NCBI GenBank assembly: GCA_001801025.1
Contig: MGWO01000013.1
Coordinates: 264,476-328,475 of the forward strand
DNA length: 64,000 bases
Direction of reading: 5' to 3'
DNA from: Gallionellales bacterium GWA2_54_124
GTDB lineage: Bacteria; Pseudomonadota; Gammaproteobacteria; Burkholderiales; Gallionellaceae
The position numbers were made by a program, and so were the translations under genes. This document shows positions 4,595 through 38,818 of the stretch, one piece after another. Every line of letters starts with the position of its first letter. Within the stretch, counting starts at the first letter, position 1. The notes under the pieces were generated by a model. The model did no database searches. It was given only the letters and a program-made list of their open reading frames with translations, and had not been told where the DNA came from.

Positions 4595-4595
4595 T

Positions 4596-5313: not shown

Positions 5314-5348
5314 AAAGAGGCCGCAGCCAGAAAGGGTGCGGCCTCTTT
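5314..5348. terminator. Terminator between convergent transcripts
   Basis: AAAGAGGCCGCA (5314-5325) pairs perfectly with TGCGGCCTCTTT (5337-5348) over an 11-base loop. It lies just after the rightward gene ending at 5303 and before the end of ccoS, so it can serve both strands. Confidence 0.8.
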
Positions 5349-5366
5349 GTTTACTTCAGAACGGCT

Positions 5367-5561: not shown

Positions 5562-5604
5562 TGCGGCTCCTTATCTTGGAATTAATGCGGCAACGCTCAC
5601 CGCA

Positions 5605-10429: not shown

Positions 10430-11431
10430 TTACTTGGCTTCAGGTGCTGGAGCTGCTTCAGGTGCTGGAGCTGCTTCAACGGCTGCTACAGGTGCAGCGG
10501 CCTCATCCTTCTGACCGCCACCGAACTTGTAAACATAGACAGCCAGCTTCTTCATATCAACAGCAGACAATTTACCTGATGCGGTGAAGTTAGGCATGAT
10601 TGCTGCACGAGCATTGGCGTCACCAGAGTTCACACCATAAGTGATAGTCTGCTTGATGCCTTCGATAGAACCATCGAAGCGCCAAACACGATCAGTCAGG
10701 TTAGCTGAACCCATAGCTTGAATACCCTTGGCATCGGCGCCATGGCAAGCAGTACAGTCGCTCTCCATGAATACCTTCTTACCAGCCGCTTCAGAATCGC
10801 CACGACCTTCACTCAATGCGAGTACGTATTTGGATACGTCATCGATTTGCTGAGCAGACAGGGTATCCTTATGCGCAGTCATCATGCCCTGGCGACCGCC
10901 AGTGATGGTAGCGTGGATGTCGTCAATTTTGCCACCATACAACCAGTCATCGTCGTTCAGACGTGGCGCCATCAGACCTTGTTCGCGAACCGCAAACTTA
11001 GCACCTACCTGCTCTGTTCCAACGCCGTTTTGACCATGGCAACCACCGCAATTGTCCGAGAACAACACTTTTCCTGAACGCTCAACGTACTTGGACAGCT
11101 CTTCGTCTGCAAGAATCGCAGCCGGTGTCATTGTCTTCAGCTTGTCTTCAAACGGACGACGCACGTCATCCAGAACTTTCTGGTCTTCAGCCAACTCTTT
11201 GATAGCAGTCCACTGTCCCGTTCCAGGCAAACCAATACCCTTAAAGAACGTACCATTAGTTGCCAGAGGGATAGCCGGATACATAATAAAATATATCACT
11301 ACCCAAAGCGCACTTGCAGTCAGACCAAGCATCCACCATTTTGGCGGCTGATTGACAAAGTCCGCCAAATCATCATCCCATACATGCCCCGTGGTAGGCA
11401 CACCACCAGCGGAGTTGTGATTATCACTCAT
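10430..11431 (-). CDS. ccoP: cbb3 oxidase dihaem cytochrome c subunit CcoP
   Basis: Membrane-anchored electron-transfer subunit. The 333 residues have an N-terminal helix pair (WWMLGLTASALWVVIYFIMY), then two cytochrome c domains with CGGCH and CTACH haem-binding motifs. Methionine-bearing stretches (QGLMAPRLND, AIMPNF) are possible distal ligands. The C-terminus is an Ala/Pro/Glu repeat tail (APAPEAAPAPEAK), longer than usual. The ATG overlaps the ccoQ stop as ATGA with GGAG ahead, so translation is coupled. Confidence 0.95.
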   Translation of the reverse strand: MSDNHNSAGGVPTTGHVWDDDLADFVNQPPKWWMLGLTASALWVVIYFIMYPAIPLATNGTFFKGIGLPGTGQWTAIKELAEDQKVLDDVRRPFEDKLKTMTPAAILADEELSKYVERSGKVLFSDNCGGCHGQNGVGTEQVGAKFAVREQGLMAPRLNDDDWLYGGKIDDIHATITGGRQGMMTAHKDTLSAQQIDDVSKYVLALSEGRGDSEAAGKKVFMESDCTACHGADAKGIQAMGSANLTDRVWRFDGSIEGIKQTITYGVNSGDANARAAIMPNFTASGKLSAVDMKKLAVYVYKFGGGQKDEAAAPVAAVEAAPAPEAAPAPEAK

Positions 11432-11628
11432 TTTTTATCTCCTGAATTGTTGTACTCGCCGTCTTCCCGCAGAGCCATGTCGCTCTGCGAGTCGAATGCA
11501 TCCTTGTTCTTAGGATTGAACACCATCACATAGACCACAATCATCGCGATGAAGGCCGCCACGGTGAAAAAAACACCCTGCCAGTCATTACCGCTCATAG
11601 CTGCCCAGTCCGTGTGCAGGTAGTCCAT
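11428..11628 (-). CDS. ccoQ: cbb3 oxidase small subunit CcoQ
   Basis: Small single-helix subunit (FixQ family). The protein from the ATG at 11628 is 66 residues: MDYLHTDWAAM, a helix FFTVAAFIAMIVVYVMVF, then the family motif NPKNKDAFD, which usually reads P-x-(K/R)-(K/R)-x-x-F/Y. The frame remains open to a TTG at 11661, overlapping ccoO. A GTG at 11640 with GAGGAAGG ahead is another possible start. It sits between ccoO and ccoP with coding overlaps, as in most ccoNOQP operons. Confidence 0.85.
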   Translation of the reverse strand: MDYLHTDWAAMSGNDWQGVFFTVAAFIAMIVVYVMVFNPKNKDAFDSQSDMALREDGEYNNSGDKK

Positions 11629-11632
11629 CAGT

Positions 11633-12430
11633 TTAGTCACGGTAGTTGACACCTTCCTCAAACTTCACGTGATTACCCAAGGATTGCAGGTAAGCGATAA
11701 CTGCGTCCATTTCTGTCTTGCCTTCGAGTTCTGCTGCTGCGCCTGCGATGTAGGCATCAGTGTAGATCGTCTTAGGAACAGGATTGAACGGCATCTTGGT
11801 CATAACTTCCAGTGTCTTGATAGTCTTGGTCTTATCAACCATAGCCTTATCCAGGAAGAAGAAGTTAGGCATAACGGATTCAGGAACCACGTCACGCGGA
11901 TACTTCAGATGCTTGCGATGCCATTCATCGGAATACTTACCACCTAAACGGGCGATATCCGGACCGGTACGCTTGGAACCCCACTGATAAGTGTGATCGT
12001 ACATCGACTCTTCAGCGATTGAGTAGTGACCATAACGATCCTTCTCATCGCGGAACGGACGAATCATCTGCGAATGGCACAGGAAACAGCCTTCACGGAT
12101 GTAAACATGACGACCTGCTGTTTCCAGCGCGGTGTAAGGACGTACGCCATCGCCGGGCTGCCAGTCTGCGAGGGTCTTGTGGGCCGAGGTAGTTGGATTC
12201 CAGACAATTTTATCCATAGGGATCGCATTGCCTTGCAAGTCTTTATGTGAAGTACCGTTAAATGTACCGTCACCGCCATTCATACCCGTGTTTGGCAGGT
12301 AGAACAAAGGCACAATTTCCACGATACCGCCCACCGCGACAGCAATCGCGGTTAAGACGAACATCAGCAGCGTATTGCGTTCGATCTTGTCCTGAAACTT
12401 GGTTGAATAAATTTTATCGTGATCAGACAT
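11633..12430 (-). CDS. ccoO: cbb3 oxidase monohaem cytochrome c subunit CcoO
   Basis: Membrane-anchored cytochrome c (FixO) passing electrons from CcoP to CcoN. The 265 residues have one N-terminal helix (TLLMFVLTAIAVAVGGIVEI) and one haem motif in GCFLCHSQMIRPFRDE; the CxxCH followed by SQ and RPF is the CcoO signature. KRTGPDIARLGGKYSD is also conserved in the family. GGGGAG precedes the ATG. It is the second gene of the operon, 12 bases after ccoN. Confidence 0.96.
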   Translation of the reverse strand: MSDHDKIYSTKFQDKIERNTLLMFVLTAIAVAVGGIVEIVPLFYLPNTGMNGGDGTFNGTSHKDLQGNAIPMDKIVWNPTTSAHKTLADWQPGDGVRPYTALETAGRHVYIREGCFLCHSQMIRPFRDEKDRYGHYSIAEESMYDHTYQWGSKRTGPDIARLGGKYSDEWHRKHLKYPRDVVPESVMPNFFFLDKAMVDKTKTIKTLEVMTKMPFNPVPKTIYTDAYIAGAAAELEGKTEMDAVIAYLQSLGNHVKFEEGVNYRD

Positions 12431-12442
12431 ATTTTTCTCCCC

Positions 12443-13873
12443 TTATGCTTTAGCTGCGACAGCGTTTACGCCGCGAACAGCGCTAGCCTGACGAATAGTC
12501 ATCACAACGTTGAACAGCATGATCCATGCGCCCAGATTGAAGATTGCACCGCCAACCGCACGCATTACATAGTAAGGATGCATAGCAGATACAGATTCAA
12601 CGAAGGTGTAGGTCAACGTGCCGAACTCGTCGTAATCACGCCACATGAGACCCTGCATAATGCCGGATACCCACATTGCAACAACATAAGTAACTGCACC
12701 GATCAAGGCTACCCAGAAGTGAATGTTCACCAGACGATCAGAATACATTTCGGTATTCCACAATTTCTTGACCATATGGTACAGAGCACCGAAGGAGATC
12801 ATTGACATCCAGCCCAAAGCGCCGGCGTGTACGTGACCCACAGTCCAGTCAGTGTAATGGGACAATGCGTTTACAGACTTGATCGCCATAACAGGACCGT
12901 CGAATGTAGACATCGCATAGAACGCCATCGCTGTCACCAGGAAACGCAGGATGTAGTCAGTACGCAGCTTGTCCCATGCACCGGACAGCGTCATCATACC
13001 GTTCATCGCGCCACCCCATGATGGGATGATCATCGCCAGAGAAACAGCTGCACCGAGCGAACCGGTCCAGTCAGGCAATGCAGTGTATTGCAGATGGTGA
13101 GCACCCAGCCATACGTAACCGAAAGTCAGTGTCCAGAAGTGCAGAACAGACAAACGATACGAGAACACCGGACGACCGGATTGCTTAGGGATGAAGTAGT
13201 ACATGATACCGAGGAAACCGCCGGTCAGATAGAAACCAACCGCGTTATGACCCCACCACCATTGAATCATCGCATCCTGAACGCCAGAATAGATAGAGTA
13301 AGAAGTCGCCCAATCCACTGGAATTGCCAAGCTGTTAACCACGTGCAGGTAAGTGATCATGACGATCATACCCATGGTGAACCAGTTTGATACGTAGATG
13401 TGCGAAGTCTTACGGATACCGATCGTCATGATGTAGTTCAGACCATATGACAGCCAGACTACGGCGATCATGATGTCTACCCACCAAGGCAATTCTGCGT
13501 ATTCCTTACCTTCTGACAGACCCAGAGGCAAAGTAATAACAGCCAGAACGATGATCAGATTCCAACCCCAGAACGTAAACCACGCCATGGTGTTGCTCCA
13601 CAGCTTGGTAGCACCGGTGCGTTGTACGATGTAGAAACCAGTCGCCATCAGTACACAACCACCAAACGCAAAAATCACCGCATTGGTATGCAGTGGACGC
13701 AGACGCCCAAATGTAATTTGAGGAATGTCAAAGTTTAAAAACGGAAACGCTAATTCGAATGCGACATACACACCGATCAACGTACCTACTACCCCATAGA
13801 TAACCGCCGCGATGGTAAACCATCTGACGATATCCATATCATACTTTACTGGTGTCGCTTGCGTAGCTTCCAC
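12443..13873 (-). CDS. ccoN: cbb3 oxidase catalytic subunit CcoN
   Basis: Haem-copper oxidase subunit I, which reduces oxygen at the haem b3-CuB centre. About twelve helices are visible over 476 residues. Landmark histidines lie in LRPLHTNAVIFAFGG (low-spin haem), WWWGHNAVGFYLT (CuB), LHFWTLTFGYVWLGAHHLQYT and DWTVGHVHAGALGW. The open frame begins with a TTG at 13894, but GTG at 13873 has GGGAGGAG five bases ahead, so I take it as the start. It is the first gene of ccoNOQP. Expression should be activated by FNR through the box at 14104-14117. Confidence 0.96.
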   Translation of the reverse strand: MEATQATPVKYDMDIVRWFTIAAVIYGVVGTLIGVYVAFELAFPFLNFDIPQITFGRLRPLHTNAVIFAFGGCVLMATGFYIVQRTGATKLWSNTMAWFTFWGWNLIIVLAVITLPLGLSEGKEYAELPWWVDIMIAVVWLSYGLNYIMTIGIRKTSHIYVSNWFTMGMIVMITYLHVVNSLAIPVDWATSYSIYSGVQDAMIQWWWGHNAVGFYLTGGFLGIMYYFIPKQSGRPVFSYRLSVLHFWTLTFGYVWLGAHHLQYTALPDWTGSLGAAVSLAMIIPSWGGAMNGMMTLSGAWDKLRTDYILRFLVTAMAFYAMSTFDGPVMAIKSVNALSHYTDWTVGHVHAGALGWMSMISFGALYHMVKKLWNTEMYSDRLVNIHFWVALIGAVTYVVAMWVSGIMQGLMWRDYDEFGTLTYTFVESVSAMHPYYVMRAVGGAIFNLGAWIMLFNVVMTIRQASAVRGVNAVAAKA

Positions 13874-14103
13874 AGTATCTCCTCCCAAGAGCAAAGTTTA
13901 AAAATAATGAGTTATTTGCTTCGCAACTGCCAAGCAATTAACCCATCTCTTCTTACAGCTTAAATAAAGCTGCGCAATCATGGCACATCCACAAGGTTTT
14001 AGTAAAGCAAATTGCGACAATCCGCCGCGCATTCCCACCTAAAACACTCAAGCTTTACCATGAATTGCATGAGCGAATAGTAGACGATATATGCGGGTAT
14101 CGT

Positions 14104-16208: not shown

Positions 16209-18320
16209 TCAGCACGTGGGGCATGTTCGTCGAGCCTTTCCGTCCACCTGAGAGACAACAGAACCACAGTCCGGGCATTCCCACACCCATTGCTTGACCT
16301 CACAGTCCATGCACTTTCCGTAGTGCATATTGTTGGTCGTGTTCAGCGGATCGAAGAAGACGCCCTCCACGGAACCGCAAGCATCGCAAGCGGCGAACGC
16401 AATGGCATCGCTGACTACGCCGAAGCCACAGCAGTGGCAGAAGTAATTTTCCGAAGCCCTCAAGCAAAAACTTTCATTTCCACACATATAGCACTTCAAA
16501 ACTTTCTCGGCATCCAGACTTTCAAGTGCCGCATCAACGGCTTCCGCGCGGTAGGGGCCGAAATTGACCAACTTATTGAAGTTTTGTTCGCTCAAAAATC
16601 GGCGGTAGTTCTCCATCTCGCCAACATCGCGTGCTTCGCCGAGTGCAAATATTGACAAGACTCGCGCCAAAATGTGAACGCAGCTAAGCTTCACCGACTC
16701 AGGATCGACCTCTGATGCAAAATGAACGAGATCATTCCGAAGGTTTACGAGTTCATTGATGAGCCTTTTCTCATCATCCATCAATCCTTCGATCGCACCG
16801 ACTAAATCGAGAACTTTGCCGAATCCAAGCGTGCTGAAATTACCCTCTTTCACAGCTCGATCGAGGTTCTCCGACGGCAGCTTGCCTTGAACAATTGACT
16901 GGAGCCCTGCTTCTCGAACCATTCGATATTTCGCCAAGAGCTCGACGGATGTTTGGATAGAGATAACTGCAACTTTCGCTGTTTGATTCGAAAGGTTACC
17001 TTCGAATAGCAATTCAAGGCCTCCATTCAAGAAATCAACTGCGTTGTCGAGAATGCGCTCAGCCGCGTCGATGGAGGCGGAATGATCCGGATCCACATCC
17101 GGCGTATTCTCTGGCGGACGTTTGGGCTGAGGATTGTCGATGTACGGTGAGTCAAACATCGATCTGGCACGCCACCCCGTTTGTCCATTGTCGATCAGAA
17201 CCCAATGCCTTGGATCCGCCTTCGGCGTCGGAAGCGGCTTCTTCAAATTCATCCTATCAAGGTAACGCTCGGTAAACTTAACCTTGTCCATCACTCGAAA
17301 AACAATGTTTTCGACAGACGGGCCACGCACCAAATTCGCAGACCCGCTCATTACCTCACAACCCCGCTCAGACACCGCCGCGAAAAACTTTGCATGAAAG
17401 TCCTGCTTTCTCACGTCCATGGCTATAATTTTGTTCTCAAGCCCAAACTTTTCAAGCAGATCCACCGGAACTCCACTCGAATTCATGGCTTTCTTGTAGG
17501 CCGTGTAGGTTGCTCCGCGAGTTAGAAAAACGGATTTCTCGGCGTTGAGAATTCCAAGCAGCCAACTCCATATGGCCAACTGATCTTCATAAGACATGTA
17601 GGTCGTTCCTACAAACGGAGAGACAATCAGCACTTGCTCTGCTAGCAAGTTCCAACGTATAACAAGTTTCTCCAGAAAGTCCATGGCATCGTTCTTGGAT
17701 ACGATGCCATCTAACGTTTCTTCCATTACGGCACCAGAAACATCAGCAAGAAAGAAGTCATTTGTCGAGCTTGGGCTGTTTTTGGTTCCCATTGCAAGCC
17801 GTGTATAAAAGGTGGCCGTATGTTTTCCTCGGCATGGGCAAGTCACGGGAACGCGTACCAATGCAATGTCGTGCCTTGGCCCTCCCTTCAAGAGGTAATT
17901 CACCGCAGTGCCATAGGCTGCGAGAATTTCCGCGATATTTGTTTGTAAGTTATTCTTTGCAAGCATCTCCAAGTTGGATGCATTCTTAGCACATCGGTAG
18001 AGTGGAACTGCTGAGTAATTGAATGACCAAGAATTCTGGTTTAGATCAATATTGTGCTGCAGCACATCACATGCAATGATCGCTCGATCTCCGGCAAAGG
18101 GCTCCTCATGCCTTGACCTAATTTGCCTGCTAAGGGCACCGCTAGATTCCCGAGGATTGCTGAGTTCGATGACAAATTGCTTGTTGCACCGGGAGCATTC
18201 AACCTCCCAATAGCCTCGGTCATTTTCAACGGGGAATCTAATTTCGATGTAATGGTGAGGTTGATCGCAAAAAGGGCAATTTGCGACATGTGTGACTTGA
18301 TCCGTACTGATTGCGCTCAT
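16209..18320 (-). CDS. PLD-like / HEPN-like / zinc-ribbon protein
   Basis: A 703-residue multidomain protein, probably a nuclease or a nucleic-acid sensor. In order: an N-terminal zinc knuckle (CPFC at 15-18, CSRC at 42-45); a phospholipase-D-type region with HAK (309-311) and SGSANL (325-330), one HKD-like half that would need to dimerise; a helical segment with the HEPN RNase motif R-x4-H (LRNDLVH, R528 and H533); and C-terminal zinc ribbons (CYMCGNESFC, CHCCGFG, CDACG, CMDC, CPDCG, CPTC). Each part is seen directly; catalytic activity is inferred. AAGGAC precedes the ATG but lies inside an inverted repeat at 18328-18344. It follows the 1095-residue gene by 155 bases on the same strand and may be part of that system or a separate one. 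Confidence 0.7.
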   Translation of the reverse strand: MSAISTDQVTHVANCPFCDQPHHYIEIRFPVENDRGYWEVECSRCNKQFVIELSNPRESSGALSRQIRSRHEEPFAGDRAIIACDVLQHNIDLNQNSWSFNYSAVPLYRCAKNASNLEMLAKNNLQTNIAEILAAYGTAVNYLLKGGPRHDIALVRVPVTCPCRGKHTATFYTRLAMGTKNSPSSTNDFFLADVSGAVMEETLDGIVSKNDAMDFLEKLVIRWNLLAEQVLIVSPFVGTTYMSYEDQLAIWSWLLGILNAEKSVFLTRGATYTAYKKAMNSSGVPVDLLEKFGLENKIIAMDVRKQDFHAKFFAAVSERGCEVMSGSANLVRGPSVENIVFRVMDKVKFTERYLDRMNLKKPLPTPKADPRHWVLIDNGQTGWRARSMFDSPYIDNPQPKRPPENTPDVDPDHSASIDAAERILDNAVDFLNGGLELLFEGNLSNQTAKVAVISIQTSVELLAKYRMVREAGLQSIVQGKLPSENLDRAVKEGNFSTLGFGKVLDLVGAIEGLMDDEKRLINELVNLRNDLVHFASEVDPESVKLSCVHILARVLSIFALGEARDVGEMENYRRFLSEQNFNKLVNFGPYRAEAVDAALESLDAEKVLKCYMCGNESFCLRASENYFCHCCGFGVVSDAIAFAACDACGSVEGVFFDPLNTTNNMHYGKCMDCEVKQWVWECPDCGSVVSQVDGKARRTCPTC

Positions 18321-18475: not shown

Positions 18476-21400
18476 CTAATTATCCAATTTAACTACAACA
18501 TTCGCCCCATCTGATTCAGAGCTCCCTGCCCAGATGACGTAAAGTTGGTGAACTGGGGTTTTTCCTCGCTCATAGGCATCGAAGGTTGCTTCTACCTCCA
18601 GAGGCCTTTCCCTCAGCGACAGCGCATCGTTGGTACCGAGATTAAATAAATGAGTGCCATAATGCCGTTGGGAGCGCTTTATGAAACGAGACTTGATGTC
18701 ATCTTCGACCTCTGGTTGGTTAGAAAGCAGGTGCATTCCGTTGTCTGACGGAAATGCCACACAGGCGAATCCGTTGTCCTTGGCAATTTCAATGGCTACG
18801 TCAAAATATGCATCCACGATGGATGCAACAGAATAATTGGTTACCATCTCCTGCATAGGATTAATGGCTCGAATGATGAGACTCGGTTGCGTGCGATGAA
18901 GGATAGGGAGAACTTCTATATAAAGCAAAGCCATACCAGCGATTCGTTGCACATTAGGCTCAAAAACCAACAAATGGGCTTGGCGTTCTTCAAGCCACAT
19001 TTCCGTGTTGTGCCGCGTACAAAGCTTGGCTGCTTCTTTTGCGAAGAAGGCCGCTGGGTGCTTTGAGACTATGGCGAATAGTGAAGCAGCGTTTTGTGAC
19101 GCACTGGTTGCTTCGGCGAACTTGGATAATTCGCGTCGCGCCCAAGTGGCCCCGACCTGCAAGACCTTGTCTTGTGTGTGGCTGAGAGCGCGCATAAGCC
19201 AATCGCTAGTAGACTCTTTCGATCCTTCGACAGCATGTTCTCCTAACTTGGAAGCCAGCATTGCAGCATCTTTCGTGCTGAATCGATGCGCAAATTGCTC
19301 AAGTTTGGTGGCGAGCGCATCAGGCAGCACGATTTCGAAGAGCGTGACCAACTCCGTCACGCTTTGTCGACCTATTAGGCTCTCCTCGTCAACCTGGAGG
19401 ATTGATTCGAATTTCCGGTATGTCCATTGATTTATCGTTGCATCACCACTTGCAGCGGCTAGGAGAACCCCCAAATGACAGGCCAGTGACTGGACATCTG
19501 CTGCCTTGTTCTTTAGGGCTTTCGGACTCAAATGCTTGCATGCTGTAAACATGTCTCGGAAATTGCTCTCTGAGAATCTTTCAGCGAAAACTGTGGCACG
19601 TTGCAGTGCATTCAGACTGGTGCGATCCAATGGTCTCTTAAGTCGCCAGCGCATCGAATGCCATGCCATTGGATAAGATGGTCGCAGGGTTAATCGCTCC
19701 AAGTCCTGAACTCTTCCTATAACGTGAGGCCAGAAGGACTGAACCGTTTCCACCGAGGAGCGATAGATAAGTGCAATGGCATCCTCCTCCAATGTTGTTA
19801 GCATTGCCCCGGTAGGACCGCCTCCCTTTTGAAGACCGACCAGTAGAGGAGTCAAGTTTTGGAGTGCATCCTTCAAATTTCCAGGCGAAATCCAAGCAGC
19901 TTCGATTAGGGTTGAGAGGAAAACTCCATCAGTCTGACTCAAGATAGTGGGAAGAATCGGCTCCATGTGATTCCGTTCTTCTTTGATGGCCGCCTTCCTT
20001 TTCGCATGATATGCATTTTGTGTGAGTTCGTCGGCGTTGTACGGCCATTGTCCTAAACTAGCTGTGACCCGTTGGTCAATGGATTGAGAGATGCGTAATT
20101 GGTTGCCTTCCAGCAGATTGAAACTTTTGCGCTCAAATGCATCGTCTAGCAACCTCTTGTCTAGGGCGTCGAACTTTTCCCTGCTGTGGTAGCCATCGAT
20201 TCCCATTGCATCGTGGTAAAACCAGTCGAGGAGGGATTTGAGCGTTTTTAGTTTGCGATCTTCAACCAAATAGGACAAGAGTGGAGTGCCTAAGGGCGCA
20301 AGCTTCAAGGATCGTTGTAGCGCATCAATACCAACAAGCTCAATTTCCGACATCAGGTAGTCGAAGGCCCCTTGGTGGCCGCCCTTTCCTGCAAGCTTTG
20401 CCCAATCGGCTGCACGCTGGCTTGTAGTTCCGGGGGCGCATTGCGTGAGGATGGAAAGCCAACCTGCAAGCGTTTTTGCCTCCATAATTGTGTAACAGTT
20501 CTGAAAGGCAAGGACGCCGTTGGCATCACCGTAACCGTACCGTGTCAGCTCGCCCAGAAACGCGGCCAAGTCATTCCCGCTTCTTAAGTAAGTGTTGCAT
20601 TGGCCGAGCTGCTCGATGGTCAGAAAATGAGGTGCACCTGCGAGGATACGCAATTCAAGTAGCTGAGTATCCGTTCCATAGTCAGGCTTGAGAGAAAGGA
20701 GCATCGTCTGACAAGTGGCGAGGTCTATGATATTGGCACCGAGTTGAGCGAGACATTGAACCGCTTCTTTTGATATCAACCTCCGCGCTTCCAACAGTGG
20801 TCTGAATAGACCTATCTCTTCGGTGGTTTGCGCGCCGATGACATTGAGCAAAAATTCCCAACATTCCGGTGGTGTTTGCCACAGACAATCATCGACTTTG
20901 TTAAGGACCTCTGAAATATCGATTACCTGAGCTGCCTTAAGTAGTTCAAGATTTTGACTAAGTTGTTCAGGATCAAGATGCAAGAACGATCGCAGGAATA
21001 GGTTAGCTATTTGACTATGATTTACCCTATGCTCTTGAAACAAACGAACAGTTTTGCGAGCCAGGAACGGCTGAGTTTCTTCGAAGTGAGATACTCTGAA
21101 GCAGTCGTTGTCACTCTTGATAGTCCAAGCAAGTTCGTCGGATGATTGAACTACACCCTCATCCACGAGGATCCATAACCCCCCCCGGGGTAGGCGTGTT
21201 TTGGAGATCGGTAGAGCGTTGCTGATTTTTGTCGGGTCGGAGAGTCCAATATGGATACAAGATTGAAGTTCGGATACGTCCAAGTGGCGAATTTGCTCAT
21301 ACTCATGAATGTTTTTTATTTGAGCATGCCGCAACAGGACGAAATCCAATAGTTCACAGTAATAATCTGCCCCAGATATTGAACGACTTATAAATTTGTC

Positions 21401-21763
21401 GAAGACATATTTCCTGCCCTCAAAGGTTCCGATGCAATTTAGTTTTGCGCGGGCGTAGCGAAAATTCTTTTCGTCAGGCAGTAACAAACGGAGATGTTGA
21501 AAAAAAATGTTCCAACGATCCGGAATTAGAGGTTGCGGCGAGGGGATTTGCAAAATCCGCCGGATGTGGTGTTCCCGCTCAGGATTTTGATACAGCAGAT
21601 CCGTGATATTCCAAGCTACGTGACTTTGGATTTTCTCAAGGCGTTCGCGAAGTAACTTGAGAGGATGTGGTGCTGGCTCCCCCCAGCTAGTTTTCCGCTC
21701 AGATTTTCCTGCTGAGGATTGCTCCCACATCTCTTCACGAAATTTGCGATAGCTTATAGTCAT
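18476..21763 (-). CDS. Unrecognised 1095-residue helical protein
   Basis: No family recognised and no P-loop, nuclease or membrane motif found. The sequence is rich in Leu, Ala and amphipathic helices throughout, such as AKLAGKGGHQGAFDYLMSEI, VTELVTLFEIVLPDALATKL and ASKLGEHAVEG. It looks like a large alpha-solenoid or scaffold. The last 150 residues are more mixed (SLIIRAINPMQEM, NGFACVAFPSDNGMHLL). The open frame extends to 21844 inside the patatin gene, but the ATG at 21763 is eight bases after that gene's stop with AAGG seven bases ahead, so translation is coupled. It is the fourth gene of the MBL / E2-E1-JAB / patatin operon. A recognition or effector scaffold role is a guess. Confidence 0.75.
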   Translation of the reverse strand: MTISYRKFREEMWEQSSAGKSERKTSWGEPAPHPLKLLRERLEKIQSHVAWNITDLLYQNPEREHHIRRILQIPSPQPLIPDRWNIFFQHLRLLLPDEKNFRYARAKLNCIGTFEGRKYVFDKFISRSISGADYYCELLDFVLLRHAQIKNIHEYEQIRHLDVSELQSCIHIGLSDPTKISNALPISKTRLPRGGLWILVDEGVVQSSDELAWTIKSDNDCFRVSHFEETQPFLARKTVRLFQEHRVNHSQIANLFLRSFLHLDPEQLSQNLELLKAAQVIDISEVLNKVDDCLWQTPPECWEFLLNVIGAQTTEEIGLFRPLLEARRLISKEAVQCLAQLGANIIDLATCQTMLLSLKPDYGTDTQLLELRILAGAPHFLTIEQLGQCNTYLRSGNDLAAFLGELTRYGYGDANGVLAFQNCYTIMEAKTLAGWLSILTQCAPGTTSQRAADWAKLAGKGGHQGAFDYLMSEIELVGIDALQRSLKLAPLGTPLLSYLVEDRKLKTLKSLLDWFYHDAMGIDGYHSREKFDALDKRLLDDAFERKSFNLLEGNQLRISQSIDQRVTASLGQWPYNADELTQNAYHAKRKAAIKEERNHMEPILPTILSQTDGVFLSTLIEAAWISPGNLKDALQNLTPLLVGLQKGGGPTGAMLTTLEEDAIALIYRSSVETVQSFWPHVIGRVQDLERLTLRPSYPMAWHSMRWRLKRPLDRTSLNALQRATVFAERFSESNFRDMFTACKHLSPKALKNKAADVQSLACHLGVLLAAASGDATINQWTYRKFESILQVDEESLIGRQSVTELVTLFEIVLPDALATKLEQFAHRFSTKDAAMLASKLGEHAVEGSKESTSDWLMRALSHTQDKVLQVGATWARRELSKFAEATSASQNAASLFAIVSKHPAAFFAKEAAKLCTRHNTEMWLEERQAHLLVFEPNVQRIAGMALLYIEVLPILHRTQPSLIIRAINPMQEMVTNYSVASIVDAYFDVAIEIAKDNGFACVAFPSDNGMHLLSNQPEVEDDIKSRFIKRSQRHYGTHLFNLGTNDALSLRERPLEVEATFDAYERGKTPVHQLYVIWAGSSESDGANVVVKLDN

Positions 21764-21771
21764 TGGAAGCC

Positions 21772-22977
21772 TTATTGCTGTAGCTCTCCCCGCAGATGAG
21801 ACGTGGCGGAGTTTGGCGTTTGGGACATCATTTCTATATTCCACTTGGCAGTCTCATACCCATTTCTTTCCAAGAGGTCAAAGGTGCCCTCACTCAATTT
21901 TCCCAGTGTAGTGCTGTAGGTCGCCGCTCGTCTTGCGTCATCGGCAGGCAACCAAGTGTAGGTTAAGAGCTTTGCTGCAAGAGCTTCTCGACCCTTTGCA
22001 AATCGTTTGATAGACGACTCCGCTGCCATGCCAATACCCACATACGCTCCAGAGGCATAGTTACTCTGCAAGAAATTTACGAAAGCTCGAACGCGCAATG
22101 CCCGACATTGATCAAGCGCGATATCAGCAATCCGCTTAAACCGGAATGGATTCAACGGATGGGGAATGGCCTGACGCGCTAGTGGTGCACCGCCGTCGGA
22201 CACGAGCAGGTAGGTTATGTCGGAGGGCAGTGTTTTATCCTTTTTCAGTGATTGCTGACCCACATCGAACATCGGCTCAATACCAAGGTTATCGTAGAGC
22301 CCACCGTCATACAAGTGCAGGTGGTTGTAGGGTGGTTGATATGACTCGGGTTCGGTAGCATTCCACTGCTTCCGCTTCTTCCAGTGAAATTTCATGGTTT
22401 TGAGGGTCAGAGGCCCAATACCACCCGGGAATGCGGCTGAAATAGCCATGGCTCTGGCAAGAGAAAAGTCGTCGACATTGGCATATCCCAGCTCGTAGTC
22501 ACCCATCGTTCCACTCTTGAAACGATAGCGTCGTCCCGTTTCTCCCGTCGTGCAATTGATGGACCAGACTGGGGCACCATCAAGAGCGCTGAGTGGTACT
22601 TTGACACCCCACAAGCCTCGAATGGCCTGGGCCAGCACGTTTGCGCGGGAAAGAATAAAACACCAGTTCAGAGGGTTCAATACCAACCGGAGGATTGCCG
22701 AGCATTGCAAAGACTGGGTAGTTAGTGTCTGCCGGATGTGCGGAAAAACTTCGCGCAGGTAGGTTTCTGACGCTGGCCAACGGTAATTTCCATGCTGAAA
22801 CACAAGGCCGACAAATAGGCTGCCACCTGACACGGACGAAACATGGACAACCTTTTCGAGAAGCCCTTGCTCAGCCAGATACCGCAGAACACCGGCATGA
22901 AAGGCGGCTGCGCGCACGCCGCCCCCCGAAAGTGCAAGACCAATAGCGCCGACTGGTTCTCTTAGAGACTCGTTCAT
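21772..22977 (-). CDS. Patatin-like phospholipase
   Basis: Predicted lipid acyl hydrolase. The 401-residue protein has the oxyanion loop SGGGVRAAAFHAG (residues 17-29), a nucleophile elbow VSSVSGGSL with Ser50 as the likely catalytic serine, AISAAFPGG (178-186) typical of the fold, and the catalytic Asp in YDGGLYDN (Asp224). A hydrophobic stretch at about 95-110 may help membrane contact. CBASS CapV effectors are phospholipases of this fold, activated by cyclic nucleotides; here no nucleotide cyclase is nearby, so the trigger must differ. The ATG overlaps the stop of the E2-E1-JAB gene as ATGA, which argues for stoichiometric coupling. Confidence 0.88.
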   Translation of the reverse strand: MNESLREPVGAIGLALSGGGVRAAAFHAGVLRYLAEQGLLEKVVHVSSVSGGSLFVGLVFQHGNYRWPASETYLREVFPHIRQTLTTQSLQCSAILRLVLNPLNWCFILSRANVLAQAIRGLWGVKVPLSALDGAPVWSINCTTGETGRRYRFKSGTMGDYELGYANVDDFSLARAMAISAAFPGGIGPLTLKTMKFHWKKRKQWNATEPESYQPPYNHLHLYDGGLYDNLGIEPMFDVGQQSLKKDKTLPSDITYLLVSDGGAPLARQAIPHPLNPFRFKRIADIALDQCRALRVRAFVNFLQSNYASGAYVGIGMAAESSIKRFAKGREALAAKLLTYTWLPADDARRAATYSTTLGKLSEGTFDLLERNGYETAKWNIEMMSQTPNSATSHLRGELQQ

Positions 22978-25286
22978 GCTGCACTTCCCTCCCCAAGAGA
23001 AATCGAAATATCAGTTTCGCCTACGATGATCATCAGTCCCGGCACTCCGTCCATAGCCAAAGTTTCAGCAAGATAGGCAAGTAACTCAGCATCTACGGCA
23101 CTGGGCACAGCAGATGAATGCCGTGGATGTGAGTGCCATTCACCTAAATAGCCAACGATGTTCGCGGTCAATGCCGCCGCTCGTTCTATTGTCTCCCGAA
23201 CGCCCGTCGCGCCACGGGTGAAGCCTGCCCTGCTGGCAAGACTATCTGTCGGAGCAGGCAGCACATCTACGATGTGAATGACTTTTCGCTTCTGATCCGC
23301 ATAGCCAAGGATTACTCCGCCGGTCTCATTCGGCAGTGACTCGGTGCGGATGCTCTTCAGTTTTTTGGTAAGTCCCTCGTCCCACGCAACCCGCCATGCT
23401 CCGAGAGATGCTACTTGGGACTCCTCTACAGGAACGATTTTGCCAGCCAGTGCTCCTGTTTTGTCGTCCATTAACCACACGCGAATCTGAGCTTCAGGCA
23501 TGGCCGACAGCAATCTTATTTGCCGCGCAAGCGTCGAAGCATGCAATTGAACAACCTCCTGAGATAGCACTCCTGAAAGATCTCGGCAGCCGCCTCCCAC
23601 CCAATAGGACCCGTGATGGCCGTTTAAATGAGAAGCACCCCAATCACTGTTCAGAATCGCTCGGTAATACTGGGCCTCCATGGAACTCAGGCGAACCTTG
23701 CGAGTGGCATCTTCAAGCATCAGAACTGAATCACGCCCCGACGGAGTGAAGAAAGAGGAAACCATACGCGGGCTATCGTTGCTGTCTGACAAATCGCGCG
23801 GCACCTCCAGTGTCGTGGTTGCATCGACTAGTAGAGTTGCCCCTGAAATAGCGGCCTTGACTTCATCGTTGCCGAAATCTGTGACTTTTGCAGAAATGGC
23901 TGTTGGTTTTGGTGCTGTTGGCCAAGTTAGGCCTGCCATATGAGCTACAACATCGACCTTTGCCCAGCCGATATGTAGATCCTTGGCGATATGACGAACG
24001 AGGTTGTGCGCATGCAATATATCGTCATCAATGAGCGTCCAATTCCCCCATCCGACGCGACACCATAGGTCAGCCATGCAACCACCTAGTGCGCCCACAC
24101 CTGCGAGAACTCCACGGAAGTCAGCGCCTTCATCCGGTATGCCGGAGGCTTTGCGAGCATCTTTCGGGGTGAATGCAACTCGAACATCAACCGGTTCAAC
24201 GGTTAGATTGCGCCACGTATCCGAAGCAGAGGAGGTAGTGCCTGTTGCGCCAATAAGCGAAAGGTTATTGGCATATGCTTTGCCGTTGGTGCCATCAAAT
24301 GCGGCGCTGCATGCGATGCCCAGACTTGCAATGTTAGTGTCATGAACAATGAATCCAGTGACATCTGTTCGTTCAGGGGCTACACCTTCCGTCCTAACTA
24401 TAGTTATCTGCAGCAACAAAAGAATGTGCTGCACATGTGGGTTTCGAATTGAAAGCCCTTCGCTTGGCACCTTCTGCTTCACTGTCTCGATGAGATTGGT
24501 GCTGAATTCGGAACCTCGGGTTGCCAGTTGGTCATGCAGCTGGCCTAACGTTGCTGGGTAGCGTTCAATGCCGGCTGAGACGGCTGGCGGGACTTGGATG
24601 ACCAAGACATCAAGCCTTGGATCATGGGCATCAGCCTTCGCCGTATTTTTTGGTTCTAATATCCCGCGCAGCACGGTCCCATTAGCTCGTGAAGATGCGC
24701 TTGCCAACCGCAAAACCTCGGACGGATTTGCTACACGCTCATTGAAGTCGGCCGGCAGAACGATCTGATAAGGAGGCACAAAATACAGCCGTTCAAGAGG
24801 CTGGTCGCTTCGGTGCAGCGTTCCCAGGGCGGTTTCACGTAGCCACCAAAGTATCCGCTGCAAATGCTTCGCAGGCGTCCAAGTTCGTTCTACTGCGCTC
24901 CAAGGCTCAAAGTACAAACACAAAGAGGCAGGCTCGCCCCGTAGAACGTGGTTCTGATGAAGAGTAGGGGGAAAGCCAACTCGGAGGGCTCGAACTTCGT
25001 GCAGCGTAATCAGTCCGGGACCATGCAAGAGCAATAGGCGCTCACGATTTTTGATTCCGACAGAATTGCGAGACGGCACGGTTCCATCGCAGCACTCGAC
25101 GACAATCCCATCGACGATTTTCGGACTTTGGTCTGTTTCTTGGTCATCTCCCAAGCGCCGCAACTCCACAACCTCAAAGGCGGGATGCCTTTGGCACGCA
25201 GCGAGAAGCTGTCGTGCCTCGTCGTAAGCCAATCTGTCCGGATCGAAGTCGGGCAGCACTTTTCCTATGGAGATGTACTCGGTCAT
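22974..25286 (-). CDS. E2-E1-JAB triple-fusion ubiquitin-like conjugation enzyme
   Basis: A single 770-residue chain carrying a whole conjugation/deconjugation set. The N-terminal E2-like domain has the catalytic cysteine in SLCLYFEPW (about Cys123) followed by LQRILWWLRETA. The E1/ThiF domain has the nucleotide loop LAGVGALGGC (about 395-404), LIDDDILHAHNLVR (about 418-431), and a candidate catalytic Cys in VGGGCRDLS (about 567). The C-terminal JAB/JAMM protease has NETGGVILG (Glu654) and EWHSHP with a downstream S-x2-D (His718, His720, Asp732). In CBASS, Cap2 (E1-E2) and Cap3 (JAB) prime the cyclase; here they are fused and no cyclase is present. I use the ATG at 25286; a GTG at 25289 is also possible. 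It is the middle gene of a coupled operon. Confidence 0.9.
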   Translation of the reverse strand: MTEYISIGKVLPDFDPDRLAYDEARQLLAACQRHPAFEVVELRRLGDDQETDQSPKIVDGIVVECCDGTVPSRNSVGIKNRERLLLLHGPGLITLHEVRALRVGFPPTLHQNHVLRGEPASLCLYFEPWSAVERTWTPAKHLQRILWWLRETALGTLHRSDQPLERLYFVPPYQIVLPADFNERVANPSEVLRLASASSRANGTVLRGILEPKNTAKADAHDPRLDVLVIQVPPAVSAGIERYPATLGQLHDQLATRGSEFSTNLIETVKQKVPSEGLSIRNPHVQHILLLLQITIVRTEGVAPERTDVTGFIVHDTNIASLGIACSAAFDGTNGKAYANNLSLIGATGTTSSASDTWRNLTVEPVDVRVAFTPKDARKASGIPDEGADFRGVLAGVGALGGCMADLWCRVGWGNWTLIDDDILHAHNLVRHIAKDLHIGWAKVDVVAHMAGLTWPTAPKPTAISAKVTDFGNDEVKAAISGATLLVDATTTLEVPRDLSDSNDSPRMVSSFFTPSGRDSVLMLEDATRKVRLSSMEAQYYRAILNSDWGASHLNGHHGSYWVGGGCRDLSGVLSQEVVQLHASTLARQIRLLSAMPEAQIRVWLMDDKTGALAGKIVPVEESQVASLGAWRVAWDEGLTKKLKSIRTESLPNETGGVILGYADQKRKVIHIVDVLPAPTDSLASRAGFTRGATGVRETIERAAALTANIVGYLGEWHSHPRHSSAVPSAVDAELLAYLAETLAMDGVPGLMIIVGETDISISLGEGSAA

Positions 25287-25289
25287 CAC

Positions 25290-26426
25290 TCAGCCAGCCC
25301 TTGGTGCTGGTTTGGAAATGAGGAGGCCTGCCGCTGAAATTGCCACACGAGCAAGCGACATCCCCAAGTTGTCGACCTTGAATTCCAGCGGTTCAGGTTT
25401 GGTGGCGTTTGGCTCCTCCATTGTCACGAGGAATTTAGCCCCACCAACTTTCTTCCGATAGCTCTCGTAGCACTTCTTCGCTTGGGTGTGCGGAGGCTGC
25501 GCCTGCTCCCTGCCTTCTTTCGTATCAAGAATGGGGGCGCTTGAGCTGACGAGGTAGGCACCTTCCTTTCCTGCAAGAAGAATTTCCTTGGCGCCGGCTT
25601 CGGGCTTTGTCTCGAACTCGCCCTTTTCATCACTCAAAGCTTTGTAGCTGCAGTGATGCGGAATGTTGTACAGGTCCCAGGCGAGGCGATCCATGTTTCC
25701 GTGAGCTTTGGTTGCCTCAACGATATCTCCCAGGACTGGCCATGTGGAGTCCCCAACTGCCAAGTAGTCGTAGTTGTTTCCATTTTTGCAGAAGCGCACG
25801 TTGAAAATCAGCGAAGCATCGTTGCGTAAGTCGTCGCCTTCATCGACATGCTTGATGAAGGGGGAATGGCAGAAGAACTCAACACCATCGGTAGCGATGC
25901 CGAAGTCTGGTGCAATCTGACCGGCGTCAGTGATGAGATGGCGACGCGATTCAAGCGTCAGGTCATTTTTTTCCAGCCAATCTTTGAGCTTCTCTGGCTT
26001 GGAAAAGACGCGAATACCTTTGCCTTCCTTGAATCGATGTCGTGCTTCTTGGCGCCAGATGACGAACTCTGAAGACTGCTCATCATTCGTGGCCGTCTCG
26101 AGAACCATCGCAGCGGGCACCCAGAGCGTTTTAATTTTGATGCGCCCCTCGCCCTGATACTTCTCAGCATGCAGGAGTTCGAAGAAGTCGGTGCTGTTCT
26201 CGATGTGATCCTTATCCCCGTGGGTAAATGCTACGACCTCAAAGCAATCGCACCCAGCATCCTTAAGCTCCTGTCCAAGATGAGCCTTCAGATTGATTTC
26301 TGGAACTGTGCCGTCCTCTGTTTTCTTTTGATGGCGATAATCCATCAGAATGCGTTTGCCGTTTTCAAGGATGATTTGGCTGGTATCACCATTTCCAACC
26401 GGGTAAAAAATGATTCGATGTGCCAT
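25290..26426 (-). CDS. ComEC-like metallo-beta-lactamase-fold protein
   Basis: A 378-residue MBL-fold hydrolase. The N-terminus IIFYPVGNGDTSQIIL and the metal motif FTHGDKDHIENS (H-x-D-x-D-H, as in ComEC/Rec2-type MBL domains, not the classic HxHxDH) are clear. Further ligands are likely in YLAVGDST and NIPHHCSYK. The substrate is unknown; DNA, cyclic nucleotides or phospholipids would all suit the fold. The chain ends in a hydrophobic then flexible tail, SKPAPRAG, so the last residue is glycine. It is the first gene of the leftward operon and its TGA lies directly next to the following start. Surveys of prokaryotic ubiquitin-like systems have noted MBL proteins beside E2-E1-JAB fusions. Confidence 0.85.
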   Translation of the reverse strand: MAHRIIFYPVGNGDTSQIILENGKRILMDYRHQKKTEDGTVPEINLKAHLGQELKDAGCDCFEVVAFTHGDKDHIENSTDFFELLHAEKYQGEGRIKIKTLWVPAAMVLETATNDEQSSEFVIWRQEARHRFKEGKGIRVFSKPEKLKDWLEKNDLTLESRRHLITDAGQIAPDFGIATDGVEFFCHSPFIKHVDEGDDLRNDASLIFNVRFCKNGNNYDYLAVGDSTWPVLGDIVEATKAHGNMDRLAWDLYNIPHHCSYKALSDEKGEFETKPEAGAKEILLAGKEGAYLVSSSAPILDTKEGREQAQPPHTQAKKCYESYRKKVGGAKFLVTMEEPNATKPEPLEFKVDNLGMSLARVAISAAGLLISKPAPRAG

Positions 26427-26603
26427 TTTGTTCTTTCAGATTGGTTTAATAAATTTGCCGCCTGAATTTGCGATCAAGTGACGCTGCTACCGCCGTTGCC
26501 ATCCATACCTGACTTTTTGAGAATGACTTGCCTTAAGCTGGTTTGAATGCAGTCAGGTATAAATTTTTTATTTCCATCGCGACTAAATCAGAGCTGTCGC
26601 TAA

Positions 26604-26669: not shown

Positions 26670-27575
26670 ATGACTGACACTATTAAAGATATTTCCTCTG
26701 AGCTACCTGCAACCAAGACGAGCGTCCGATGGGGGCAAGATCGCCGCTTGGCCTTCATTGATTTTCGTTTGCGATGGGATGGCCGTATCAATCGGAGCGA
26801 TCTAACCGATTTCTTTTGTATTTCAACACCGCAGGCGTCACTTGATATAGCTCGCTACACGGCGCTGGCCCCACAAAATCTTGCTTATGATCGAAGTTCT
26901 CGGGCCTACCAAATTACGGATAATTTTTTTCCGCTAAGTGCGGAGAGCCAGTCACAGAGATACTTGAATGAGTTGCTAGCGTCTACGACTGGCATTCTTG
27001 AGCAGGGGGCAAGCTTCATTGGATGGCAACCATCAGTAGACAGCGTTCCCCAGCCTGGACGAGTGGTTGAGTCCAATACTTTGGCGGCTTTACTTAAAGC
27101 TATCAGAGAAGGTGTTGGTCTTAAGCTTGACTATCAGTCTATGTCGCGTCCAGAGCCAACTACGAGAACTATTTCGCCACACGCACTCGCCTACGATGGC
27201 TTTCGCTGGCACGTGAGGGCATTCTGTCATTCGCGCAACGAATTTCGTGATTTCGTCTTGGGCCGAATTCTTGCCGTTCGGGAAGTCGAGTCGGCTGGAA
27301 AACCAGCGACTGAAGATGTTGAATGGAACACAATACTGACTCTGGTCATAGCTCCTCATCCAGGTTTATCTGAAGGAAAGCGCCGGGCAATTGAGTTGGA
27401 CTATGGCATGCAAAATGGGGTAATTGAGTTGAAGTGCCGTCAGGCACTGCTGTTCTATACGCTTCGGAGGTTGGGGTTAAATACTCAGGAAACACAATCA
27501 CCTGAGGCGCAACAAATTGTCTTAAAGAATCAGGCCGAACTAGCCTTTTTATATAGCGGTATCAGTACGGTCTAA
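26670..27575 (+). CDS. WYL-domain transcriptional regulator (BrxR/CapW-like)
   Basis: A 301-residue regulator with a winged-helix DNA-binding N-terminus (RRLAFIDFRLRWDGRINRSD, about 26-45, then STPQASLDIARY), a WYL ligand domain (HALAYDGFRWHVRAFCHSR, about 171-189, with RDFVLGRI) and a C-terminal WCX-like part. This is the BrxR/CapW architecture, known to repress defence operons until infection signals arrive. It lies divergent to the E2-E1-JAB operon and 19 bases before jetA on the same strand. It could therefore repress both systems. Its base composition is more AT-rich than the Jet genes, so it probably travelled with the leftward operon. Confidence 0.85.
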   Translation: MTDTIKDISSELPATKTSVRWGQDRRLAFIDFRLRWDGRINRSDLTDFFCISTPQASLDIARYTALAPQNLAYDRSSRAYQITDNFFPLSAESQSQRYLNELLASTTGILEQGASFIGWQPSVDSVPQPGRVVESNTLAALLKAIREGVGLKLDYQSMSRPEPTTRTISPHALAYDGFRWHVRAFCHSRNEFRDFVLGRILAVREVESAGKPATEDVEWNTILTLVIAPHPGLSEGKRRAIELDYGMQNGVIELKCRQALLFYTLRRLGLNTQETQSPEAQQIVLKNQAELAFLYSGISTV

Positions 27576-27594: not shown

Positions 27595-29052
27595 ATGTCT
27601 CTCGATTTCACCACTCTCGACGCCCTGCGTACCCACCATCCCGCGTGGCGGCTGCTTCGCTCGGATCACGCGCCGCTGGTGGCAAGTTTTCTGCACCGCG
27701 TGTTCGTTGCTCCCAATGTGCGGGTGATGGCGGCGGCTGACTTGGCCGAGGCGCTGGAAGATGAGTTGTACGCCCTGCGTCAGCAACGGGGAGAGGACAA
27801 TGCCTTTCCAAAGTCTGGGATTGAATATCTGAACGATTGGGCTGCGCCCGACAAGGGGTGGCTACGCAAATTCTACAGGCCGGGTACGGACGAGGCGCAG
27901 TTTGACCTGACACCCGCCACCGAAAAAGCCATTGCCTGGCTGGCACAACTGGGTGAACGGCAGTTCGTTGGTACTGAATCCCGCTTGCTCACACTGTTTG
28001 ACCTGCTCAAACAGATGAGCGAGGGGAGTGAGTCGGACCCGGCCAAACGCATTGCAGAACTGCACAAAAAGCGCGATGAGATCGATGCCGAGATTGCGCG
28101 TGTATTGTCGGGCGATGTGCCGCTACTGGACGATACGGCATTAAAAGACCGCTTTCAGCAGTTCATGCTGGGCGCACGTGAGTTACTGGCCGACTTTCGC
28201 GAGGTGGAGCAAAACTTCCGTCAGCTGGACAGGCGTGTGCGTGAGCGCATTGCCTTGTGGGAAGGCAGCAAGGGTGCATTGCTGGAAGATATTATGGGCG
28301 AACGCGATGCGATTGCCGATTCTGACCAAGGCAAGAGCTTCCGGGCGTTCTGGGATTTTCTGCTCTCCAGCCGTCGGCAGGATGAGTTAACGGAATTGCT
28401 GGACCGGGTGCTTCAGCTTCCTGCTGTGGCCGACCTGAACCCTGATGCGCGCACGCGCCGCGTGCACTATGACTGGATGGAGGCTGGTGAACATACGCAG
28501 CGTACTGTGGCGCAACTGTCGCAGCAGATGCGGCGTTTCCTTGATGATCAGGCCTGGCTGGAAAACCGCCGTATCATGGATATCCTGCACGGCATCGAGA
28601 GTAAAGCTCTGGCCCTGCGCGATGCGCAACCTGCCGGTTGGGTGATGGATATGCCTGAGCCGACTGCCGATATTGAACTTGCGATGGAACGCCCGATGTT
28701 TTCCCCGTCCATAAAACCGGTTATCGCCAGTCTGTCCTTACAGGCGGGGGATGAGGACATCGATCCTTCCGTCTTGTTCGATCAGGTCGTGCTGGACAAG
28801 GCGCGCCTTACCCGTCATATCCGCCATGCTTTACAAGACAAAGCGCAAATTACGTTAAGTGAGCTGGTATCCACTCAACCGTTGCAACAGGGCTTGGCTG
28901 AGTTGGTAGCCTATCTGCAGTTGGGCAGCGAAACCTTCACCACGGTGGCAAATGAGGAAACGCAGGAGCTCATCCGGTGGCAAGCCGTGGCAGCCGATGG
29001 TTCTGATCTGACCAGAAGCGCACGGCTGCCCCGTGTAATTTTCATGCGCTGA
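27595..29052 (+). CDS. jetA: Wadjet subunit JetA
   Basis: DUF3375-type protein of type I Wadjet, the kleisin-like (MukF-like) subunit that links JetC heads and JetB. The 485 residues begin with a winged-helix-like region (FTTLDALRTHHPAWRLLRSD), followed by long helices (ELHKKRDEIDAEIARVLSG, REVEQNFRQLDRRVRERIALW) and a C-terminal segment (ITLSELVSTQPLQQGLAELV) that would contact the SMC. Together JetABC extrude DNA loops and detect small circular plasmids. It is followed by jetB after 14 bases. G+C is visibly higher than in the WYL gene before it. Confidence 0.93.
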   Translation: MSLDFTTLDALRTHHPAWRLLRSDHAPLVASFLHRVFVAPNVRVMAAADLAEALEDELYALRQQRGEDNAFPKSGIEYLNDWAAPDKGWLRKFYRPGTDEAQFDLTPATEKAIAWLAQLGERQFVGTESRLLTLFDLLKQMSEGSESDPAKRIAELHKKRDEIDAEIARVLSGDVPLLDDTALKDRFQQFMLGARELLADFREVEQNFRQLDRRVRERIALWEGSKGALLEDIMGERDAIADSDQGKSFRAFWDFLLSSRRQDELTELLDRVLQLPAVADLNPDARTRRVHYDWMEAGEHTQRTVAQLSQQMRRFLDDQAWLENRRIMDILHGIESKALALRDAQPAGWVMDMPEPTADIELAMERPMFSPSIKPVIASLSLQAGDEDIDPSVLFDQVVLDKARLTRHIRHALQDKAQITLSELVSTQPLQQGLAELVAYLQLGSETFTTVANEETQELIRWQAVAADGSDLTRSARLPRVIFMR

Positions 29053-38784: not shown

Positions 38785-38798
38785 CTGGCATATGCCAG
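38785..38798. promoter_or_regulatory. Palindrome ahead of the methyltransferase
   Basis: CTGGCATATGCCAG is a perfect 14-base palindrome ending eight bases before the GAGGAG ribosome site of the ParB-methyltransferase gene; a likely operator. Confidence 0.45.
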
Positions 38799-38818
38799 TG
38801 CATTCTGAGGAGTCAATT

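Follow-up and report, generated by a model that had tools for sequence, protein, structure and literature searches.

What does a bacterial E1-E2 enzyme conjugate when the operon that encodes it holds neither a nucleotide cyclase nor a recognised ubiquitin-like protein? The question is raised by four leftward genes in a stretch of 64,000 nucleotides from Gallionellales bacterium GWA2_54_124 (contig MGWO01000013.1), here called the window. They encode a metallo-beta-lactamase (MBL) fold hydrolase, a fusion of E2, E1 and JAB isopeptidase domains (E2-E1-JAB), a patatin-like phospholipase and a protein of 1095 residues (Table 1). An initial annotation, made from the letters alone, had placed the four open reading frames (ORFs) in one operon, and they are present as described. 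The MBL stop codon and the E2-E1-JAB start codon are adjacent at 25290/25289 and the E2-E1-JAB and patatin genes overlap by ATGA at 22974–22977, both as annotated, but the 8-base overlap reported at 21763 is really an 8-base gap between the patatin gene and that of the 1095-residue protein. The E2-E1-JAB start codon is a GTG immediately followed by ATG; the 1095-residue protein would have 1122 residues if it began instead at a GTG at 21844.

The answer that we consider likely is the MBL-fold hydrolase itself. It would be the second ubiquitin-like modifier lacking a beta-grasp fold, after the CD-NTase of cyclic-oligonucleotide-based antiphage signalling systems (CBASS), attached through a C-terminal Gly, processed by a JAB domain of the same chain as the conjugating enzyme and combined with swappable patatin or multi-transmembrane effectors. 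The operon as a whole can probably be read as a 6A-MBL defence operon whose effector is the patatin and whose regulator is a CapW-like WYL protein; E2-E1 would conjugate the MBL through its Gly, JAB would trim it or reverse the conjugation, and the patatin would kill. The earlier suggestion of a modification-controlled phospholipase system can be upheld as a fair guess; the initial interpretation as a whole is supported in part, having missed both the WYL regulator and the conserved Gly of the MBL.

The two core genes can be placed firmly. The E2-E1-JAB protein matches the NCBIfam model NF058523 with 659.3 bits (cut-off 320, E = 7e-198) and the MBL matches NF058524 with 389.9 bits (cut-off 220, E = 1e-116). 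Both exceed the equivalog cut-offs and both models carry the label “anti-phage 6A-MBL system”. With their genes side by side in one operon, the two form a 6A-MBL pair, a known kind of defence system. MBL proteins of other defence systems in PADLOC (Avs1a, Lamassu LmuA and DRT-associated) also match, at 2e-4 to 2e-11, far more weakly than the 6A-MBL model. A triple module of E2, E1 and JAB with an MBL domain, in an operon usually of two genes, is already given as row 6a by Iyer et al. 2006 (PMC1779556), as far as the consulted part of that paper goes, and with the pair both there and in NCBIfam the core cannot be called undescribed, as the combination had been. What the window operon has beyond the pair is the patatin and the divergent WYL regulator. 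The words “patatin” and “phospholipase” are absent from the main text of the 2006 paper, where WYL was not looked for, and no NCBIfam model matched either protein.

Further evidence comes from comparison with other loci, labelled with L-numbers, that were found through the MBL, the E2-E1-JAB protein or the patatin; L040–L043 were found via the patatin and are biased towards it. Profile scanning of 56 loci gave 38 distinct MBLs, the window included, with an adjacent E2-E1-JAB gene on the same strand. Outside the scan were L001–L032, L047–L050, L054–L064 and L092, most of which duplicate other loci or are simple E1 matches. Excluded from the 38 were L070 (truncated MBL), L080 (no partner), L066 (no MBL found), L093 and L095 (repeats) and L086 (partner split over two frames, tail GFG, patatin downstream). 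Some imperfect cases were kept, namely L094 (only the larger piece taken of an MBL broken over two frames), L046 and L094 (partner ends at the contig end), L072 and L082 (short partner) and L068 (fused partner).

The enzymes of the operon appear intact. Numbered from the GTG, residues H111 and C124 of E2, G397, G399 and G402 (GxGxxG) and C568 of E1, and E655, H719, H721 and D733 of JAB are invariant in 15/15 aligned proteins; the catalytic residues named in the initial annotation are among the invariant ones, with numbers one lower if counted from the ATG. PADLOC profiles match the JAB part (9e-22) and the E1-E2 part (1.5e-18), and the counterparts of Cap2 (E2-E1) and Cap3 (JAB) are united in one fused chain; the E1 part is 24% identical to one Cap2 (E = 5e-7). 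In the MBL, H69, D71, D73, H74, D226, H257 and H258 are invariant in all 10 aligned sequences, as are S50 and D224 of the patatin, its Ser nucleophile and catalytic Asp, in 10/10.

The feature that points to the MBL as the conjugated protein is its C-terminus. A Gly lies within the last seven residues of all 38 MBLs and of 17/38 adjacent E2-E1-JAB proteins (Fisher p = 2e-8, relatedness ignored), and it is exactly the last residue in 19/38 MBLs as against 1/38 partners (p = 3e-6, likewise). When the comparison is confined to the 33 operons with an intact one-chain partner of 700–900 residues, the counts are 33 against 16 for a Gly in the last seven (p = 9e-7) and 18 against 1 for a terminal Gly (p = 4e-6). 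The terminal motif is RAG (22), HG (9), G[FY]G (4) or TYG (3), with 0–6 residues after it; 19/38 bear 1–6 residues beyond the motif Gly, an example being the MBL of L042 (Gluconobacter), where PRAG is naturally extended. The window MBL ends ...PAPRAG, and in the alignment of ten MBLs R376, A377 and G378 are invariant, preceded by a variable stretch rich in Ala and Ser; the other nine sequences of this alignment are 26–64% identical to the window MBL and were chosen after the first tails had been seen, with three MBLs of other endings omitted (L004, L049 and L050, whose operons are among the 38 as L065, L068 and L069). The MBL of L080, which has no partner, has a different ending. In a model of the window MBL built from seven sequences (mean pLDDT 70), residues 361–378 form the longest stretch below 50; with seven shorter stretches below 50 as well, the case that this makes for a free tail is weak. 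The literature searched gave nothing on the MBL tail, with most subscription papers outside that search and a prior description therefore possible; as far as our searches show, the conserved Gly tail appears to be new. We take it to suggest that the MBL is what the E1-E2 conjugates.

The obvious precedent is type II CBASS, with which the window operon shares E1-E2 and JAB modules, patatin or transmembrane effectors and a CapW-like regulator, and which it would also resemble in a Gly-ended tail if the MBL is the client. According to the parts consulted of PMC10097602, 1,583 cyclases whose operons also encode Cap2 and Cap3 have Gly or Ala as their last residue, whilst the penultimate residues vary; the last residue is the one that becomes linked to Cap2 as a thioester, and when it is deleted conjugation is lost and the phenotype is that of missing Cap2. 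The CBASS of Bacillus cereus attaches the terminal Ala to PspA lysines, a linkage that Cap3 undoes, according to the consulted part of PMC11153139. Two cyclases among our loci agree with this pattern: the cyclase of a CBASS operon with Cap2 and Cap3 (L105) ends GRSQAG, close to the MBL ending PRAG, and that of L044, a stretch with no annotated Cap2 or Cap3, ends FPTK without Gly (one case each). The window operon differs from type II CBASS in that no CD-NTase is found, the Gly tail belongs to the MBL instead of a cyclase, Cap2 and Cap3 are joined in a single chain, and the patatin is not CapV by sequence. None of the four genes matched a CD-NTase family at E 0.1, which bears out the earlier view of CBASS-type parts without a nucleotide cyclase, and SMODS and AGS_C, the cyclase families searched for genome-wide, had no match anywhere in the host genome.

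The Bil and Bub ubiquitin-like pathways likewise bring E1 and E2 together with a JAB-type enzyme in an operon of defence type, but no beta-grasp modifier is recognised in the window operon. No such Pfam domain was found in the four genes, and the 0–8 bases between them leave no room for another. Bil systems use ubiquitin-like modifiers (PMC11354881, as consulted in part), and E2-E1 might similarly act on a ubiquitin-like protein encoded elsewhere in a genome that was itself not searched for one, the MBL tail being unrelated. This seems to us improbable, given the lack of space for a further gene in the operon and a sufficient candidate in the Gly tail of the adjacent MBL.

By analogy with CBASS, the E1 part would adenylate the C-terminal Gly of the MBL and the E2 part would pass the MBL to a target lysine, as Cap2 does with the CD-NTase. 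The JAB part would trim MBL precursors with residues beyond the Gly and would remove the MBL from its targets. This would position or prime the MBL in the manner of the CD-NTase of CBASS. The WYL repressor would release the operon upon infection or DNA damage and the primed MBL would act; the patatin, or elsewhere a multi-transmembrane protein, would destroy the membrane and bring about abortive infection. Since the MBL would be conjugated via its Gly as the CD-NTase is by Cap2, it would fill the place of the CD-NTase and be both modifier and regulated enzyme. The 6A-MBL tails thus offer a concrete candidate for what the E1-E2 conjugates, testable by one residue. The core is ordinary and the reading newer: a known defence pair, an exchangeable membrane effector, and a hydrolase that looks like the conjugated protein.

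That the patatin belongs to the system is clear from its recurrence. It is associated with 13/38 operons (12/37 besides the window; 9/34 without L040–L043) and lies directly downstream in the window and in L040, L042, L043, L078, L081, L083, L088 and L090 (split). In L067 it is found upstream of the MBL, in L041 it is convergent, and in L072 it is ~3 kb downstream, beside a separate JAB gene. The closest relative of the whole operon is L078 (MBL E = 7e-228, patatin E = 3e-196, WYL E = 4e-143). In L068 a single ORF of 1183 residues (10453–14004) holds E1-JAB at 372–756 and a patatin at 796–1180, with E2 weakly matched (i-E 1.3), a natural fusion that connects the phospholipase with the conjugation enzyme. 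In place of the patatin, 11/38 operons (L037, L051, L069, L073–L076, L084, L087, L089 and L091) encode, at most 150 bases downstream, a protein with 2–4 transmembrane segments by simple hydropathy. Nine of the ten of these that were scanned had no PADLOC match at E 0.001, that of L089 barely matches a CBASS 2TM effector, and that of L037 is a DUF6338 protein. The remaining operons have no neighbour or another one, as in Escherichia coli pSE11-2. The patatin and transmembrane slots and the E1-JAB-patatin fusion suggest a CBASS-like logic operating without a cyclase. A similar protein of ~320 residues adjoins the patatin in L078 (14105–15079) and L042 (8121–9092), in opposite orientations and in distant operons; the two share TRFRAYQL near the start (by eye).

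The patatin had been called CapV-like. It has no match to a PADLOC CapV model at E 0.1, and its alignment with the annotated CapV of L105 is confined to the Gly-rich motif (E = 0.03); it looks, by sequence, like a branch other than CapV. The exchangeable effectors, and an MBL that occupies the position of the cyclase in tail, gene order and type of E1-E2, could also be read as a CBASS without cyclase, in which a small nucleotide ligand, made or released by the conjugated MBL, opens the patatin or transmembrane effector. We regard this as unlikely, because some operons have no adjacent receiver and MBL folds are usually hydrolytic.

The WYL gene, divergent from the MBL gene, is most likely a CapW-like controller serving the 6A-MBL operon, judging from its sequence and setting. 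A homologue is divergent beside the MBL in 12/40 other loci, the best being in L078. These 40 loci were nearly all selected for MBL, E2-E1-JAB or patatin, and the plasmids were therefore searched as well, the two best distinct matches being read. The best (60% identical, L105, Paraburkholderia) is divergent from a type II CBASS operon (1609–6861) of phospholipase, DncV-like cyclase, Cap2 and Cap3, and the second (55%, L106, Variovorax) from a nuclease and helicase pair. The regulator is thus divergent from an immune operon and 60% identical to one that faces CBASS. In L083 (Ruegeria) an HTH (helix-turn-helix) and ImmA/IrrE pair lies upstream in place of WYL; CapW (WYL) and CapH with CapP control neighbouring immune operons upon DNA damage (PMC13373217, part consulted). 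The WYL gene also lies 19 bases ahead of a JetA gene (27595–29052, PADLOC JetA 1e-223). No JetA homologue was found in the 40 other loci, and the protein encoded before the nearest plasmid JetA (76%, L104) has 317 residues and is unlike the WYL protein (one case). As 12 WYL homologues face an MBL and the protein of L104 is dissimilar, we do not favour the WYL gene as a part of Wadjet, although, standing between two defence operons, it may control the Jet genes as well. JetA is followed by three ORFs that could, by their size, be JetB, JetC and JetD; NCBIfam matched none of them. The inverted repeat between the WYL and MBL genes is absent from L078, L077 and L038, and L037, L081 and L091 have different ones; as a conserved operator it is not supported by the other loci.

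Several points weigh against the proposal of a conjugated MBL with a membrane effector. The genes, their intact catalytic residues, their recurrence and the conserved tail are observed, and from these we infer conjugation and trimming, together with the order and trigger of events and the role against phage; anti-phage activity is NCBI's label, for which no source was found in the literature, nor was the term 6A-MBL found there. The motif classes of the tails were named after the tails had been inspected, and the proteins are related. Nine second MBL-like proteins (L051, L052, L053, L071, L077, L079, L084, L088 and L089; annotated, weakly matched or, as in L079, recognised by eye) form an imperfect control: 3/9 (L071, L077 and L079) carry a Gly among the last seven residues and 2/9 (L077 and L079) end in it. 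The tail could instead serve docking or degradation. As the patatin is not CapV by sequence, gating by a cyclic nucleotide cannot be assumed. The WYL family, with 690 plasmid records, is wider than 6A-MBL. Finally, L038, L053, L077 and L099 have no adjacent effector, so the effector is optional and the MBL may be toxic alone.

The last point belongs to an alternative with two effectors, in which toxicity would lie with the MBL itself, acting as a ComEC-like nuclease or phosphodiesterase that conjugation restrains or targets, and the patatin would be an accessory. Its invariant metal-binding residues would fit such a role, and the nearest solved relative is the beta-lactamase-like domain of ComEC (sequence E = 2e-7; fold E = 3e-10, template-modelling scores 0.49/0.66), but this similarity is no proof of nuclease activity. 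Patatins and transmembrane proteins moreover recur in one slot, like CBASS effectors, and in one case patatin and enzyme form a single chain. We consider the alternative possible, though rather doubtful. As to the arrangement of the second MBL-like genes, those of L079 and L052 lie directly downstream of E2-E1-JAB.

The 1095-residue protein, seen initially as part of the machine, fares differently from the other three. Expected to occur together in other genomes, the patatin, MBL and E2-E1-JAB genes do so, but a profile of the 1095-residue protein found it in 0/37 other operons (the contigs of L046 and L094 end before the site), and even the closest operon, L078, is without it. It occurs in no other of the 399 genomes of the order that were searched. 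Plasmid relatives are limited to eight records, all Burkholderia or Paraburkholderia; the four examined have no MBL, E2-E1-JAB or patatin match within ~8 kb, and one of them is truncated beside an insertion element. Because the profile hit the window alone among the operons compared, the examined relatives show no 6A-MBL genes and the other genomes of the order searched lack the protein, we regard it as a neighbour that is probably not part of the machine. The 8-base spacing and shared strand in this genome are what a four-gene machine, with the protein as sensor or E3-like partner, has in its favour; on the distribution just given we consider it very improbable. As a candidate partner or hidden cyclase the protein found no backing in sequence searches, which gave no family: there was no Pfam or PHROGs match, PADLOC and NCBIfam reached E 0.03–0.04 only, and a match over 50 residues in L032 (Chlamydiae) is probably due to chance. 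A single-sequence structure model (mean pLDDT 35.7) was not used, and the protein may have a fold that sequence searches miss. In the Burkholderia plasmids L033 and L034, the relatives lie near type VI secretion VgrG, hydrolase and Tli4-type immunity genes (by annotation in L034, by similar ORFs in L033).

Table 1 Coordinates of the operon and its associated features in the window
Feature	Position	Strand	Remarks
MBL-fold metallo-hydrolase (6A-MBL_enzyme), 378 residues	25290..26426	-	First gene of the operon; NCBIfam NF058524
MBL C-terminal tail, residues 361–378, end Pro-Arg-Ala-Gly	25293..25346	-	Proposed E1-activated conjugation tail
E2-E1-JAB triple fusion (6A-MBL_cap2_3), 771 residues from GTG	22974..25289	-	NCBIfam NF058523
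E2 domain, Prok-E2_A, residues 49–180	24750..25145	-	Pfam PF14457, E 1.8e-22
E1 adenylation domain, ThiF, residues 392–500	23790..24116	-	Pfam PF00899, E 4.6e-11
JAB isopeptidase domain, residues 648–758	23016..23348	-	Pfam PF14464 (Prok-JAB), E 3.6e-12
Patatin-like phospholipase, 401 residues	21772..22977	-	Pfam PF01734, E 3.4e-15; proposed membrane-attacking effector
1095-residue protein, unknown fold	18476..21763	-	Judged a co-transcribed neighbour outside the conserved system
WYL-domain regulator, divergent from MBL	26670..27575	+	Pfam WYL, 2e-16; probable CapW-like transcriptional controller
Inverted repeat with perfect 10-bp arms, 36 nt apart	26505..26560		Between WYL and MBL; candidate operator

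The 6A-MBL operon family is found in Pseudomonadota, Cyanobacteriota, Bacteroidota, Deinococcota and Actinomycetota, with Nostoc, Hymenobacter, Deinococcus, Streptomyces and Rhodococcus among the hosts by name. At E ≤ 1e-10 and with the host counted, the MBL matched in 5/369 genomes of the class, 8/398 of the phylum and 6/399 of the order, samples that overlap; 5, 7 and 4 of these matches, respectively, are above the family cut-off, and two of those below it are one truncated gene and one without a partner. The plasmid search gave 242 records. The pSE11-2 form was matched in 31/5426 E. coli genomes, in 29 over at least 80% of its length. The window MBL had no match among 50,697 phage records; in IMG/VR a few contigs match.

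Beyond the 1095-residue protein, a leftward protein of 703 residues (16209–18320) gives weak ZacB and HEPN/DUF3644 matches and an N-terminal match to a Lar-family model below its cut-off; by these matches it is perhaps a further downstream defence gene. The right half of the window encodes a DNA methylase (38792–40207), a protein with a transposase-type HTH and an integrase core (48877–49815) and a serine recombinase (56829–58550), which suggest a mobile or island region.

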